48,188 bases of DNA, taken from Akkermansiaceae bacterium. GTDB taxonomy: Bacteria; Verrucomicrobiota; Verrucomicrobiia; Verrucomicrobiales; Akkermansiaceae. Positions within the stretch are counted from its first letter, which is position 1. Each line of letters begins with the position of its first letter. Shown piece after piece: positions 35,528 through 40,311 of this stretch. Below the pieces are notes generated by a model that saw only the letters and a list, made by a program, of their open reading frames with translations, was not told the DNA's origin and did not search any database. The translations under genes were made by a program, and so were the position numbers. The stretch spans positions 1 to 48,188 of the forward strand of contig CAIRGO010000006.1 of NCBI GenBank assembly GCA_903878115.1. Direction: 5' to 3'.

Positions 35528-36646
35528 TTAGATTGCCAAACGTTGTTTAACGATCTGTGGCGTTGTTAGATTTTCACCAAGTGATAGTTCGATGACATGA
35601 AACTTCCCGCCTAAATGGGCTGGATGGGTGAGCGTCTGAAAATTACGAATCAATGCACTATCTGAGGCTGATGTTTCAAGAATCGTCGCGGCATGGCGGG
35701 TCAGAAAGAATTCCTGCGGCTCAAAGCGCAGAATCGCGCATTGAAGAGCCTCTGCCACGTGCGCTACTTGGGTGAAATTGACGTGCGCTGTGATGTCGTG
35801 TTCTCCGGGATGATCTAAGAAATTTTCCGATGCACGGTGATAACGATAGCAGCGTAATGTGCCCGATGTTCGGTCTGCATGATAGTATTCTGGAGCAGCA
35901 AATCCATAATCGATAAATAACAGCCTGCCTGTGCTCATCACCGCTGTGAGTGATGCCATAAAAGCTTGTACATTATCGCGGAATTCAGTGCGGTAGCCGA
36001 TCGGATAGTCGTTAAGAAGGCTGCATGATGGTAGTGGTCGCAGCGTTTCATGAAATTGCCCGGTTGCTTCATCGGTCTGCACATAGACTTCTTGCCATCC
36101 CATCTCGCTTTGCTGAATCAACCGGCATGGTAACGCATCGATGATTTCATTGGCGATAACAAATGTAGGTTGTGGATCGATCCCTGTAACATTGCTCACG
36201 CATCTAGCCGTTTTACCAAATCTAGCCAATGCTTGTTGTTGAAATGCAAGGGGAAGCGGCATGGGATCAATCGTTAGGTATTCCACAGTCGCATAGGCTT
36301 CAGGAAAATCAGTGGCGAGAGTCTGAAGAATATCGCACGCTAGCGCAGCGTTGTTAGGTCCTGGTTCAACAATCCGCCATGGACCGCTGATTTTTGCTTC
36401 ACACCACCAGCGAGCAATATAGTGAGCGATGATTCTTCCAAATAGCGGACCACAACTAACACTCGTGAAAAAATCACCACGCTTGCCGATCTGCTGAGGT
36501 GTTTGTGCATAGTAACCAAAATCGGGGTGATACAGCGCGTGTGACATATATTCCACAAAAGGCATCGACGCTTTCGTAGCCAAAAATTTCCTCAACGCTG
36601 AGGTTGCGTTTCCAGAGAAATCAAAGTAAGAATTGTTGCGCGACAT
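35528..36646 (-). CDS. MidA-family (DUF185) class I SAM-dependent methyltransferase
   Basis: A 372-residue protein of the MidA/NDUFAF7 family. The hallmark start MPFVEYMSHALYHPDFGYYAQ (about residues 28-48) is followed by GKRGDFFTSVSCGPLFGRIIA (about 53-73). The SAM loop IVEPGPNNAAL is less glycine-rich than the usual ExGxGxG. FVIANEIIDALPCRL (about 158-172) is the conserved Asn-Glu motif. Mitochondrial relatives methylate an arginine of a complex I subunit; bacterial targets are mostly unknown. The start codon shares CATG with the divergent PBP gene. Confidence 0.88.
   Translation of the reverse strand: MSRNNSYFDFSGNATSALRKFLATKASMPFVEYMSHALYHPDFGYYAQTPQQIGKRGDFFTSVSCGPLFGRIIAHYIARWWCEAKISGPWRIVEPGPNNAALACDILQTLATDFPEAYATVEYLTIDPMPLPLAFQQQALARFGKTARCVSNVTGIDPQPTFVIANEIIDALPCRLIQQSEMGWQEVYVQTDEATGQFHETLRPLPSCSLLNDYPIGYRTEFRDNVQAFMASLTAVMSTGRLLFIDYGFAAPEYYHADRTSGTLRCYRYHRASENFLDHPGEHDITAHVNFTQVAHVAEALQCAILRFEPQEFFLTRHAATILETSASDSALIRNFQTLTHPAHLGGKFHVIELSLGENLTTPQIVKQRLAI
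36604..36632 (+). promoter_or_regulatory. predicted promoter of the class A PBP gene, inside the divergent gene
   Basis: TTGCGT (36604-36609), 17-nt spacer, TAAGAA (36627-36632), ending 12 nt before the ATG at 36645. It lies within the first codons of the divergent methyltransferase gene. Confidence 0.5.
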
Positions 36647-39086
36647 GGCCGGTAGTTGGAACAGTTGGAGAAGAAAGAACGTAAAGAGAAGATTCTACAA
36701 GCGCAAAGGCTTTTGGATCGGATTTTTAGGTTTTGGCATTGTGATGGCAGTCGCTAGTTGGATCTTTTGGAACTCCTATAGTGCCCCTTATCGAGATCGC
36801 TCTCTGATCTATGATTTGGAGAGAATCAATGACATTGAAGTGCCCAGCATCATCTTGGATCGCAATGGCAAAGAAATCGGTCGGATTTTTGTGGAGAACC
36901 GCAGTATGATGGCGTTTCAAGATATACCTAGTAATTTTATCAATGCTCTCAAAGCAGGCGAAGATAGCCGATTTGATAGTCACGATGGTGTCGATTACAT
37001 CGGGGTTGCCAGAGCTGGTCTCAAAATGATTCGCAATCGCGGAGAAGTCACACAAGGAGCCAGCACCATAACGCAGCAATTAGCGCGTGATGCATTCAGT
37101 CTAAAAGCCGAAGCAAAAAAACGTCAAGAATCAGGCTTCCAGCGCAAGATGGTAGAAATGTTTCTTGCCCAGCGCATTGAGCGACGCTACCGCAAGGATG
37201 AAATATTAGGCTTTTTTGTGAATCGTACATTTTTGGGTAGTGGCTATTACGGATTGCGTTCCGCTTCGTTAGGATACTTTGGCAAAGAGCCGAAAGATCT
37301 AACAATTCCTGAGTGCGCTTCCATTGTTACCATTTTGCGTAACCCTCTTGAATTAAGTCCAAGCAACAATCTCGAGGCCAATCGAAGTGGACGTAACCAC
37401 GTTATTTGGAGAATGCGTGAGGAAGGTATGATTTCTCATGAAGAAATGGTGTGTTTCCAAGCATTGCCCGTGACGTTACAGCCAAAGCCTTTGCAACGCG
37501 GTACAACTCATGTATATGAACTGATCGCGGCCGAAGCTCGTTTGTTAATCGGCGAAGATGCTTTTGCAAAAGGAGGTTTTACCATTCGCACTACCATTTG
37601 CAAAGAGGCGCAAGATGCAGCTCAAAATGCGATGGCAGAAACATTTGCTTCTATCGAAGCTCGGCCCGACTATGCTAATCCCAAGTATAAAGAATTCAAA
37701 AAAGGCAACCTCCCTCCAGCCTATTTGCAAGGTGCCTTGATGATGATGGTTCATGAAACAGGCGAGGTATTGGCGTATCTCGGAGGGCGTGATTACACTC
37801 ATTCGCAATACAACTTTATTGAAGAGGGAAAAAAACCGTTAGGCACGGCATTCTTTCCCTTTTTGGTTGCTGCTGGATTTGCCAATGGACAAACTCCTGC
37901 TAGCTTGATCGAAGATGAACCAATGGACAATCGCATGATCATGGTCGGCGGTCGCGAGGGGATATTAGGAGAGTGGGGTGCTGAAAACCAACGTCCTACC
38001 TTTGAGGGGCATATACCTCCGCGAAAAGCGTTAGAAAAATCTAAAGTTGCTGCGATGGTTCGGTTCGGAACACAGACTGGCTTAGATAAAGTAGCGGAGA
38101 GCGCTAAGCGTTTTGGATTTGAAATTCCTGATGGCGAAAAATTACCACGTATGTTGGTGGGTTTTGAGCCGGTTTCGATGTTGCAGGCTGTGTCTGCGAT
38201 TGCAGCTTTTGGTCGTGGTGGGCAAACAGGCGCTCGTAAAGCCTATTACGTAGAACGTATCGAAGATGGTACAGGCCACGCAATTATGCAGCGTGTGGGA
38301 CAAGAGCCGCCTCGTTTGCAACCGATCGATGAAGCCAGTGCTTATCAAGTTCACAGTATGCTGCAGGGGACAGTGACGCAAGGAAATTTGAGCAATGCCA
38401 TGGGTGGGATGAATCCAGCATTTCATGGCGGCGTTAAAACGGGTACGATGCATGATTTTTCTGGATGCTGGAGTTTAGGCTATACGCCACGTGTATCGTG
38501 TGGTGTTTGGTGTGGTTTTTTACAAGGGGATAATCGTTCCATTTATGATGGAGCATTTGGCAAGGATCTTGCATTGCCCATTTGGAAGGCCGCGATGAGT
38601 GCGCTTGCTAAAGATTACTTACAGGGAGATATTCGCCGTCCAGCTTCTGTGGTCGAGATCGATGTCTGTCGCGTGAGTGGCCAGCGGGCGAGTCAATATT
38701 GTTACGAAACAATCGAAGATCCGCAGACGGGTTTACCGAAATTACGCGATGCTCGAAGCAAGGAATTTTTCCGTGTAGGCACTGAGCGAGTCCCAACCTG
38801 TGCGATTCATTCGGGTGGCTTGCCCGATGTAAACTCGGGTAAAAATTCAAGCCAAGATGTGGCATCGTTGGATGCCATACCTGTTCGTCCCAAGGAACCA
38901 ATTTTACTTGGGAAAGATCCTTATCAATCAGAAACTCCTAAGGGTGGCAAAGTGGAAGATGATGAAGCAGAAGAGGGCGCATTTTTCCGAAGCATGGAAA
39001 ATACGGTTGATACACTCGATCTTGGAGATGAAAAAGCGCAACTTCCATTAGGCAAGCCTACCAAATTGGAGATCGAGGTGGAGTGA
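36645..39086 (+). CDS. class A penicillin-binding protein with degenerate transpeptidase site
   Basis: An 813-residue inner-membrane protein with a basic N-terminus, a membrane helix (about residues 24-46) and a large periplasmic part. The GT51 glycosyltransferase is intact. Catalytic Glu106 lies in AGEDSRFDSHDGVD, followed by QGASTITQQLARD and the RRYRKDEILGFFVN block, so it should polymerise lipid II. The penicillin-binding domain is recognisable from LGGRDYTHSQYNF. However, the SxxK motif reads G-T401-A-F-F404-P, losing Ser and Lys. SxN reads S466-K-V468, while K598-T-G is kept. Cross-linking and beta-lactam acylation are therefore unlikely. I chose ATG 36645 because the earlier TTG at 36633 directly follows the -10 box. 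Confidence 0.9.
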   Translation: MAGSWNSWRRKNVKRRFYKRKGFWIGFLGFGIVMAVASWIFWNSYSAPYRDRSLIYDLERINDIEVPSIILDRNGKEIGRIFVENRSMMAFQDIPSNFINALKAGEDSRFDSHDGVDYIGVARAGLKMIRNRGEVTQGASTITQQLARDAFSLKAEAKKRQESGFQRKMVEMFLAQRIERRYRKDEILGFFVNRTFLGSGYYGLRSASLGYFGKEPKDLTIPECASIVTILRNPLELSPSNNLEANRSGRNHVIWRMREEGMISHEEMVCFQALPVTLQPKPLQRGTTHVYELIAAEARLLIGEDAFAKGGFTIRTTICKEAQDAAQNAMAETFASIEARPDYANPKYKEFKKGNLPPAYLQGALMMMVHETGEVLAYLGGRDYTHSQYNFIEEGKKPLGTAFFPFLVAAGFANGQTPASLIEDEPMDNRMIMVGGREGILGEWGAENQRPTFEGHIPPRKALEKSKVAAMVRFGTQTGLDKVAESAKRFGFEIPDGEKLPRMLVGFEPVSMLQAVSAIAAFGRGGQTGARKAYYVERIEDGTGHAIMQRVGQEPPRLQPIDEASAYQVHSMLQGTVTQGNLSNAMGGMNPAFHGGVKTGTMHDFSGCWSLGYTPRVSCGVWCGFLQGDNRSIYDGAFGKDLALPIWKAAMSALAKDYLQGDIRRPASVVEIDVCRVSGQRASQYCYETIEDPQTGLPKLRDARSKEFFRVGTERVPTCAIHSGGLPDVNSGKNSSQDVASLDAIPVRPKEPILLGKDPYQSETPKGGKVEDDEAEEGAFFRSMENTVDTLDLGDEKAQLPLGKPTKLEIEVE

Positions 39087-39105: not shown

Positions 39106-40311
39106 ATGAGTAACACTGCTACAGAAACAGACACGCGACGTTGGAATGCATTTGTTTGCTCAGATTGCAGGGCCATTTTTCGCGTGCCTTTAGGACATGC
39201 CGGCTTAGGTGTTGTTTGCCCCGCTTGTGAACGCATGCTACGCCTGCCGAAAGCCAGTGATTCAATTCCTGAACTTGTTATTCAACAGCAATCAATCACT
39301 TCTAAGATCCCAGAAGTACAGGTGGAAGCTCACCAAATCAAGAGAGATGAGCAGCTGGACGAAAGTGAAGTCATAACAGCTAGAAGTGATGAAAATACTG
39401 TCGCTAAAACGGAAATGCGCCGTAGAAAAAAGCGTCGTGAATCAAACTACACGGATGTAGAAACGGAATGGCAACAAGGGGCCAATAAGAAAATGTTGCG
39501 TTTTGACAAGCCGCGCGCTCCATGGTGGATGTTAGCGGCGGTGGCGGTACTCAGTTTATTGTTGGTGTCTGTTGTAAGTTTACTACTTGTGAATAAAACA
39601 AATTCACAGCCTAAGATTTCCGCGCCTGTCTTTAATCCCGATAGCCTATCAACTGTTCCATCGGTAAAGCCAATAATCAAACAAGATTTTAATCTAGCAA
39701 AAATCGAAGAGCTAGCAAAAGCATTTATTAACGCAAAGACGGTAAATGAACTATTAGTGCACGTTCGGCAATTGCCTGAAATTGAGCAGAAAATTCGCGA
39801 CTATTATCAACGTGTTCCCTATACATCCGCTGGGTTCGCTGGATTTGGAGAGCTGTCTGTAGTCGCGGATGATCAAGGCGTAGTGATCGTTAGTTTCCAG
39901 ACGAAAAATTTTGAAACAAGAGAGCTTTATCTATGTAAAGATGGCGATGAGTATGCGATAGATTGGGAGAGTTGGGTTGGCTGGTCGGCCATGGATTTTG
40001 CCGAGTTAAAGATGAACAAACCAACCGCGGCGGTCGAGGTGCGCGTGACTCTTGCTGCGGAATCTTATTACAATTTTGATTTTCCTCCGAATGAAGAATC
40101 CCACTGGCAATCTTACCGGTTAATCTACTCTGATGGTGAAAGTATTCTTCATGGCTATGTGGAAAAAGCTACGCCAATCGATAATCAACTGCGTTTGGCA
40201 CCGGATGAAAAAAGCAAACAGATGACCTTATTGATTAAGTATCGAGAAAACTCCTCAACAAACGATCAAGTCTTGATTGAAAAAATTGTGACCGAAGGTT
40301 GGGTCAAATGA
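39106..40311 (+). CDS. zinc-ribbon single-pass membrane protein, unrecognised
   Basis: A 401-residue protein. The N-terminus carries a CSDC...CPAC zinc ribbon (about residues 18-21 and 38-41), a type common in Verrucomicrobia and Planctomycetes membrane proteins. A charged, probably disordered linker runs to about residue 130, and a membrane helix (about 142-166, WWMLAAVAVLSLLLVSVVSLLLV) follows. The C-terminal part (about residues 195-395) is a mixed alpha/beta domain with a cystatin/NTF2-like feel: helix EELAKAFINAKTVNELLVHVRQLPEIEQKIRDYY, then sheets. I cannot assign a function. It starts 19 nt after the PBP and is probably cotranscribed. Confidence 0.72.
   Translation: MSNTATETDTRRWNAFVCSDCRAIFRVPLGHAGLGVVCPACERMLRLPKASDSIPELVIQQQSITSKIPEVQVEAHQIKRDEQLDESEVITARSDENTVAKTEMRRRKKRRESNYTDVETEWQQGANKKMLRFDKPRAPWWMLAAVAVLSLLLVSVVSLLLVNKTNSQPKISAPVFNPDSLSTVPSVKPIIKQDFNLAKIEELAKAFINAKTVNELLVHVRQLPEIEQKIRDYYQRVPYTSAGFAGFGELSVVADDQGVVIVSFQTKNFETRELYLCKDGDEYAIDWESWVGWSAMDFAELKMNKPTAAVEVRVTLAAESYYNFDFPPNEESHWQSYRLIYSDGESILHGYVEKATPIDNQLRLAPDEKSKQMTLLIKYRENSSTNDQVLIEKIVTEGWVK

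Follow-up and report, generated by a model that had tools for sequence, protein, structure and literature searches.

A class A PBP-like protein without the catalytic Ser and Lys of its transpeptidase domain

The window considered here, a 48,188-nucleotide stretch of contig CAIRGO010000006.1 from an Akkermansiaceae bacterium (assembly GCA_903878115.1), encodes a protein related to the class A penicillin-binding proteins (aPBPs), in which an intact GT51 glycosyltransferase (GT) domain precedes a transpeptidase (TP) domain that has lost its catalytic serine and lysine. The gene and its features are as follows.

36645-39086, + strand: coding sequence of the class A PBP-like protein, 813 amino acids including the ATG start, with the stop codon inside the span (translation of the open reading frame, ORF)
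36705-36809, + strand: N-terminal helix, hydrophobic and presumably a membrane anchor, residues 21-55 (AF2 secondary structure and sequence)
36867-37415, + strand: GT51 glycosyltransferase domain, residues 75-257 (PF00912, 164.8 bits)
36960-36962, + strand: codon of E106, the catalytic Glu of GT51, invariant in 65 of 65 orthologues (translation and orthologue alignment)
37731-38624, + strand: TP-fold domain, residues 363-660, apparently catalytically dead (PF00905 and predicted PBP fold)
37842-37862, + strand: degenerate SxxK motif, G400-T-A-F-F-P-F406, with T401 for Ser and F404 for Lys (translation and orthologues)
37929-37985, + strand: stretch 429-447 with the clade-specific residues N429, G436, L441, E443, G445 and E447 (conservation comparison)
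38040-38048, + strand: degenerate SxN motif, S466-K-V468 (translation and orthologues)
38436-38444, + strand: retained K598-T-G motif (translation and orthologues)
38910-38924, + strand: G-x-D-P-Y motif conserved in the C-terminal tail, residues 756-760, where disorder is predicted for most of the stretch (orthologues)

The protein has the architecture of an aPBP, combining a GT51 domain that carries the catalytic Glu motifs (E106 and QGASTITQQLARD) with a C-terminal penicillin-binding fold, whose Pfam match (PF00905) covers residues 363-605 at 57.8 bits. Among the motifs of a bifunctional PBP, SxxK and SxN are missing and KTG is present, and the full-length TP fold separates it from monofunctional enzymes that consist of GT51 without a TP domain. 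Its score against the PBP1A family profile TIGR02074 (371.4 bits) lies below the cut-off of 508.75 bits, as do those against the PBP1C/PbpC profiles TIGR02073 (223.5 of 494.2 bits) and NF051885 (275.6 of 900 bits). No BiPBP_C domain is found among its Pfam matches, unlike the PbpC-like protein C254 of the same genome. By sequence, its three closest relatives of known structure are PBP1a chains, which align GSSFKPF (4oon), GSSIKPF (5u2g) and GSTIKPF (3udf) to GTAFFPF of the window protein. An initial annotation of the locus had numbered these residues correctly (E106, G400-T401-A-F-F404-P-F, S466-K-V468, K598-T-G), and its reading of an intact GT51 domain beside a transpeptidase with T401-x-x-F404, S466-x-V468 and K598-T-G stands. 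Its statement that only K598-T-G survives is right for that motif but overlooks S466 of SxN, which is also kept; the residues lost are Ser401, Lys404 and Asn468.

Fixation of the loss in Verrucomicrobiae

All 38 related genomes covered by a first search contained matches, and each of the 30 loci read, one per genome, has Thr for Ser and lacks the Lys. In total, 67 orthologues from the class Verrucomicrobiae were read, leaving 65 distinct proteins after removal of the near-copies L126 and L142 (L and G numbers designate our loci and genomes). These counts leave out L071, a 354-residue protein with no TP domain, and L270, a fragment from G012 that was read later. In the alignment with Verrucomicrobial relatives that the initial annotation proposed, Ser is replaced by Thr401 in 65 of 65 orthologues, and 63 of 65 have no Lys at position 404, which is occupied by Leu (26), Phe (17), Thr (16), Lys (2) or other residues (4). 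Position 466 is Ser in 53, Gly in 11 and Ala in one, and position 468 is Asn in 21, Ile in 37 and Val in seven. Accordingly, SxN is impaired in different ways, with Asn468 alone lost in 44 of the 65 (including the lineage of the window) and Ser466 alone in 12, while the remaining nine keep both residues, which indicates that different lineages lost different parts of the motif. K598 is present in 64 of 65, and the complete catalytic set S/K/S/N/K/T/G is found in none. In the tail, where the alignment is soft, D758 is kept in all 65 and Y760 in 60.

Controls behave differently. At the aligned columns, Ser and Lys are both kept in 68 of 68 aPBPs from other loci, in 69 of 69 once the intact C100 protein of the window's genome is added, and in 32 of 32 intact Verrucomicrobial paralogues. 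The control aPBPs derive from 71 loci, three of which had no usable ORF, and were picked by search rather than sampled at random. Chance is therefore rejected as the source of the substitution (Thr in 65/65 orthologues versus Ser and Lys in 69/69 controls). Sequencing or assembly error is likewise rejected, since the change is common to the window's genome, nine others of its genus and the whole clade. So is misalignment, since the G-x-x-x-P context around the motif is kept and the controls align correctly.

The GT51 half presents the opposite picture, with E106, D107, Q145 and E171 each present in 65 of 65 orthologues; identity to the window protein is lower in the TP than in the GT domain. 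These observations bear on the idea that the protein is only a scaffold in which both activities are dead. The invariance of the GT51 residues and the stronger conservation of the GT half make this idea highly improbable.

Two orthologues, L048 and L138, read T-x-x-K, SKN and KTG, so that Thr for Ser is their only departure from the catalytic set. Within the clade, parsimony requires two changes on the tree to account for Lys versus other residues at position 404, and the Lys of these two proteins may thus have been regained as well as retained. Their motifs, together with the hydroxyl group that Thr possesses, are what favours an active D,D-transpeptidase using Thr401 as its nucleophile. Nevertheless, with Lys gone in 63 of 65 orthologues and the Asn of SxN also missing in the window's lineage, such an enzyme is very unlikely here.

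The named records of the clade come from Haloferula, Akkermansia, Akkermansiaceae and Spartobacteria, that is, from Akkermansiaceae and neighbouring groups. Matches above 790 bits occurred in 30 of the 113 genomes sampled across the class, and in a phylum sample of 194 genomes none of the matches listed from outside class Verrucomicrobiae exceeded 254.1 bits. The initial annotation had framed the protein as a variation of the PVC group, which is too wide a scope, as the clade was found only in Verrucomicrobiae in the samples searched. Many of the genomes are metagenome-assembled and the sampling is uneven.

Constraint and predicted fold of the dead TP domain

Despite the lost motifs, the TP domain is under purifying selection. 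Among nine Akkermansia-like genomes, the median dN/dS of the dead protein is 0.060 for TP (36 pairs) and 0.053 for GT (35 pairs), compared with 0.035 and 0.027 for the intact paralogue. These genomes belong to genus code g3, called Akkermansia-like because L136 (G140, g3) is 87% identical to the named Akkermansia record L044. In the genus of the window, synonymous sites are near saturation and pN/pS was used instead, giving over ten genomes 0.262 for dead TP, 0.140 for dead GT, 0.187 for intact TP and 0.158 for intact GT. The dead TP thus evolves under weaker constraint than a functional one, yet far from neutrally.

An AF2 model based on 27 orthologues has a mean pLDDT of 80.4, and the blocks covering residues 361-660 range from 73 to 97 with an average of about 90. 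The last 90 residues are mostly predicted to be disordered, yet hold the conserved D-P-Y motif. VIA-align matched the whole model to Acinetobacter baumannii PBP1a with Z 42.4 (8.1 Å over 496 residues) and to 4oon with Z 41.9 (3.1 Å over 382 residues), consistent with a retained PBP fold. Taken together, a dN/dS of about 0.06, the predicted fold and the residues particular to the clade suggest that the domain is maintained rather than decaying. The view of the initial annotation, that the acylated Ser and general-base Lys were lost while the fold was kept, thus agrees with the clade-wide fixation, the predicted fold and the purifying selection.

Set against the 32 intact paralogues, the conserved residues particular to the clade are P398, T401, N429, G436, L441, E443, G445, E447, H570, A637, F638 and Y760, six of which cluster in 429-447, between SxxK and SxN. 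No Ser, Lys or Cys that could form a replacement pair occurs among those of the TP domain, in a comparison that did not examine cleft geometry; as far as conservation shows, then, no different Ser/Lys pair has taken over the site, the finding that by the initial annotation's own account would have overturned it. A rebuilt site might nonetheless combine Thr401, KTG, E443, E447 and H570 to sense or process peptidoglycan peptides or a partner. The near-invariance of T401 (65/65), K598 (64/65), E443 (64/65) and G445 (65/65) speaks for such a site, as do N429, G436, L441, E447, H570, A637 and F638, which are conserved in the clade and rare in the intact paralogues. However, no general base stands in place of Lys404 (Leu, Phe, Thr and others occur there), and the invariance of T401 could reflect capping of the helix that starts at residue 400 in the model. 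On balance, we consider a rebuilt site unlikely.

Descent and further dead-TP GT51 groups

Trees were built by a quick method with the motif columns excluded. In both of them the dead orthologues (the T-clade) form a single clade, with SH-aLRT 95 for 39 rows of a 94-protein tree and 100 for 27 rows of a 67-protein tree, separate from the intact PBP1A paralogues that these genomes also encode. We infer a duplication older than those families of the class in which both copies occur. Between the first and second tree, three PbpC rows, 12 of 15 rows of a truncated group, 12 of 39 T-clade rows, four intact Akkermansiaceae rows and L171 were cut, while a group of fusion proteins grew from two rows to seven. 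The long-branched L171 had been labelled intact in the first tree despite its degenerate motif. This protein (L171:1454-3535, + strand; G026 C1) is a second, fast-evolving T-clade-like paralogue that reads GTAFLPL, with W-G-G in the KTG column, and its genome also carries a regular orthologue.

The truncated group, found in Akkermansiaceae, comprises 15 rows in one clade (SH-aLRT 99) that keep remnants such as GTAFEPF and neither SxN nor KTG. Its members stand in tandem with an intact PBP1A in six loci read (L162, L193, L194, L195, L196 and L198). The window's own genome has one:

L185:1580-3292, - strand: truncated GT51 protein C195 of G000, the window's genome, with TP mostly deleted

Like the window protein, C195 joins GT51 to a degenerate TP (G-T-A-F-E-P-F); unlike it, C195 has lost most of the domain and groups with intact PBP1A in the tree.

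A third group consists of proteins of 1274-1377 amino acids, found in Verrucomicrobiae families in which the clade of the window was not seen, that run from GT51 through a dead class A TP and a class B dimerisation domain to a second TP:

L253:3384-7223, + strand: fusion ORF, with likewise L246, L247, L248, L250, L251 and L252, and a partial frame in L249

Pfam identifies GT51, PBP_dimer and a C-terminal TP in seven of seven fusion proteins (L181, which is the L253 protein, plus six). Their class A TP has exchanged Lys404 for Gln and Lys598 for Met, so that KTG becomes M-x-G, in 7/7 rows, with Ser401 still Ser in four. The second TP displays PGSxFK, SxN and K[T/S]G in every one of the eight scanned frames, the partial L249 included. 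The recurrence of the frame in families f34, f18, f36, f7 and f21 argues against an artefact of a single assembly. The best tree puts this group apart from the T-clade, and forcing the two into one clade gave a p-AU of 0.018. Since the groups had been defined once a first tree was available, this rejection of a single common loss for the three dead-TP groups is suggestive only. Joining the T-clade with the truncated group was not rejected (p-AU 0.144), and these two may share an origin.

The truncated group also bears on whether the window gene is a decaying relic, on its way to a monofunctional glycosyltransferase, whose TP domain is simply tolerated. The loss of three catalytic positions, the lower identity of the TP domain among orthologues and the shedding of most of TP in the C195 type fit such decay, as does the absence of the TP of the dead-TP protein of genome G013 from that genome's PF00905 matches at E 0.001. 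However, the domain is full length throughout the clade, contig-edge fragments aside, and the dN/dS of about 0.06, the clade-specific conserved residues and the confidently predicted fold run counter to decay, making it quite improbable.

Other cell-wall enzymes in the host genomes

Four GT51 proteins are encoded in the genome of the window, namely the window protein, the intact PBP1A C100 (GSVFKPF, SRN, KTG), the PbpC-like C254 (GSLYKPF, SRN, KTG) and the truncated C195; the other intact aPBP for which the initial annotation advised looking is hence present in C100. The same genome has three TP proteins without GT51, which contain SxxK and KTG and were taken as class B PBPs, as well as two SEDS and twelve YkuD matches. 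With the intact PBP1A, PbpC-like, class B, SEDS and YkuD proteins at hand, cross-linking in trans is available. An intact PBP1A was also read in 19 of 19 genomes checked, from two genera, that carry the dead-TP protein.

Three of 28 genomes searched for GT51 gave a single match. In G013 (1.5 Mb, 90% complete; L034, C51) it is the dead-TP protein (GTAFIPF, SKI, KTS), and the genome keeps three PF00905 matches (E 0.001), none of which is that protein. In G012 (1.1 Mb, 69% complete; L270, C217) it is a dead-TP fragment at a contig edge (WTAFLPF, SKI), and in G023 (2.1 Mb, 96% complete) an intact aPBP (GSLFKPF, SRN, KTG). If the G013 assembly hides no paralogue, this cell would live with no GT51 protein other than a dead-TP aPBP.

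Neighbouring genes

The genes on either side of the PBP gene are:

39106-40311, + strand: downstream gene, 19 nt past the PBP stop, with a zinc-ribbon-like N-terminus, a transmembrane helix and a periplasmic NTF2-like and OB-like region (weak fold matches)
35528-36646, - strand: divergent MidA-like methyltransferase (PF02636)

Of 20 loci, 14 have a homologue of the downstream gene adjoining the orthologue, and these 14 all belong to the window's family; no homologue was found beside the orthologue in L225, L226, L232, L233, L234 and L235. Every Pfam match of this gene is below cut-off, and Foldseek returned nothing at E 0.001 or better. VIA matched residues 192-294 to the N-terminal part of Enterococcus faecium PBP5 (Z 9.3), tied with an NTF2-like protein (Z 9.2), and residues ~293-400 gave OB-like matches; all are too weak to name the gene by fold, and no such name was adopted. 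Its product is a candidate partner of the dead-TP protein. The MidA-like methyltransferase has a homologue next to the orthologue in 17 of 20 loci and is probably just a conserved neighbour. Its start codon overlaps that of the PBP gene (36644-36647), leaving zero intergenic space as the ORFs are called.

A probable glycan polymerase with a non-catalytic TP domain

The evidence points to an enzyme that polymerises glycan and carries a structural or regulatory TP domain without catalytic function, with cross-linking in trans, and we regard this as the probable nature of the window protein. It would be a membrane-anchored GT51 polymerase derived from an aPBP by an old duplication within Verrucomicrobiae. 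Judging by its residues, a TP domain without the nucleophile Ser and the general-base Lys would be expected neither to cross-link peptides nor to be acylated by beta-lactams. The domain would be retained as a folded, non-catalytic module, most likely positioning or gating the GT51 domain and binding partners, for which the stretch 429-447 and the D-P-Y tail would be the likeliest contact surfaces. Other enzymes of the same cell, namely the intact aPBP paralogue, class B PBPs or L,D-transpeptidases, would cross-link the glycan strands in trans.

Known systems resemble this arrangement in part. The window protein shares with the PBP1A family (TIGR02074) the order of presumed membrane helix, GT51 and TP, the GT51 motifs, the predicted TP fold and KTG, but it lacks the Ser and Lys of SxxK and the Asn of SxN and has its own 429-447 stretch and D-P-Y tail. 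Like MtgA and other monofunctional glycosyltransferases (MGT; TIGR02070, NF010008), it is predicted to polymerise without cross-linking; unlike these enzymes, which have no TP domain, it keeps a full-length TP fold. Escherichia coli PBP1b S510A likewise pairs GT51 with an inactivated TP and is reported to polymerise lipid II without TP activity (PMC5089857). That variant is an engineered point mutant, whereas the loss in the window's clade is natural, old and fixed. The same study describes the GT activity of PBP1b as both required and sufficient in cells whose sole cross-linker is the L,D-transpeptidase YcbB (PMC5089857). In Clostridioides difficile PBP1, another study reports GT to be needed for septum synthesis and TP to be dispensable for division, with both needed for growth (PMC12539705), so that TP loss is not harmless where a substitute is absent. 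By analogy, other enzymes should cross-link the glycan strands that the window protein is expected to make, and its TP fold would be structural or regulatory.

Several observations weigh against this interpretation. A Thr nucleophile is conceivable in L048 and L138, given their T-x-x-K, SKN and KTG. KTG is mostly kept (K598 in 64/65) and T401 invariant, and the site may still serve a ligand or some chemistry. The dead TP evolves faster than the intact one (pN/pS 0.262 versus 0.187; dN/dS 0.060 versus 0.035), and block 431-440, within the clade-specific stretch, has the lowest pLDDT of the TP model (73). G023, with an intact aPBP alone, implies that the dead-TP protein is not indispensable across the family, and G013 is only about 90% complete, so that an intact paralogue could be missing from its assembly.

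A broader proposal can be put forward tentatively, and we hold it to be possible rather than likely. Verrucomicrobiae may have uncoupled polymerisation from cross-linking more than once, with a rebuilt pseudo-transpeptidase cleft in the window's clade (invariant Thr401, E443-W-G-x-E447, H570, F638) serving to gate GT51 as a site for sensing or docking, while in other families of the class a dead-TP GT51 protein became fused to a class B PBP instead. If true, a beta-lactam-blind GT51 polymerase would operate beside the classical one in many families of the class.

In open-access titles and abstract openings, a coverage that excludes subscription papers and preprints, neither a natural TP-dead aPBP clade in Verrucomicrobia nor a fusion of class A and class B PBPs was found. 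aPBPs are regarded as bifunctional enzymes, and what their TP domain contributes besides catalysis is not clear. A natural clade that lacks the catalytic Ser in every orthologue read, with a TP domain predicted to be folded and kept under selection, offers a ready test of such a role. The fusion proteins suggest that GT51 polymerases and class B cross-linkers are physically coupled, and the window protein predicts, in Akkermansia-like bacteria, a GT51 polymerase that would not be acylated by beta-lactams.

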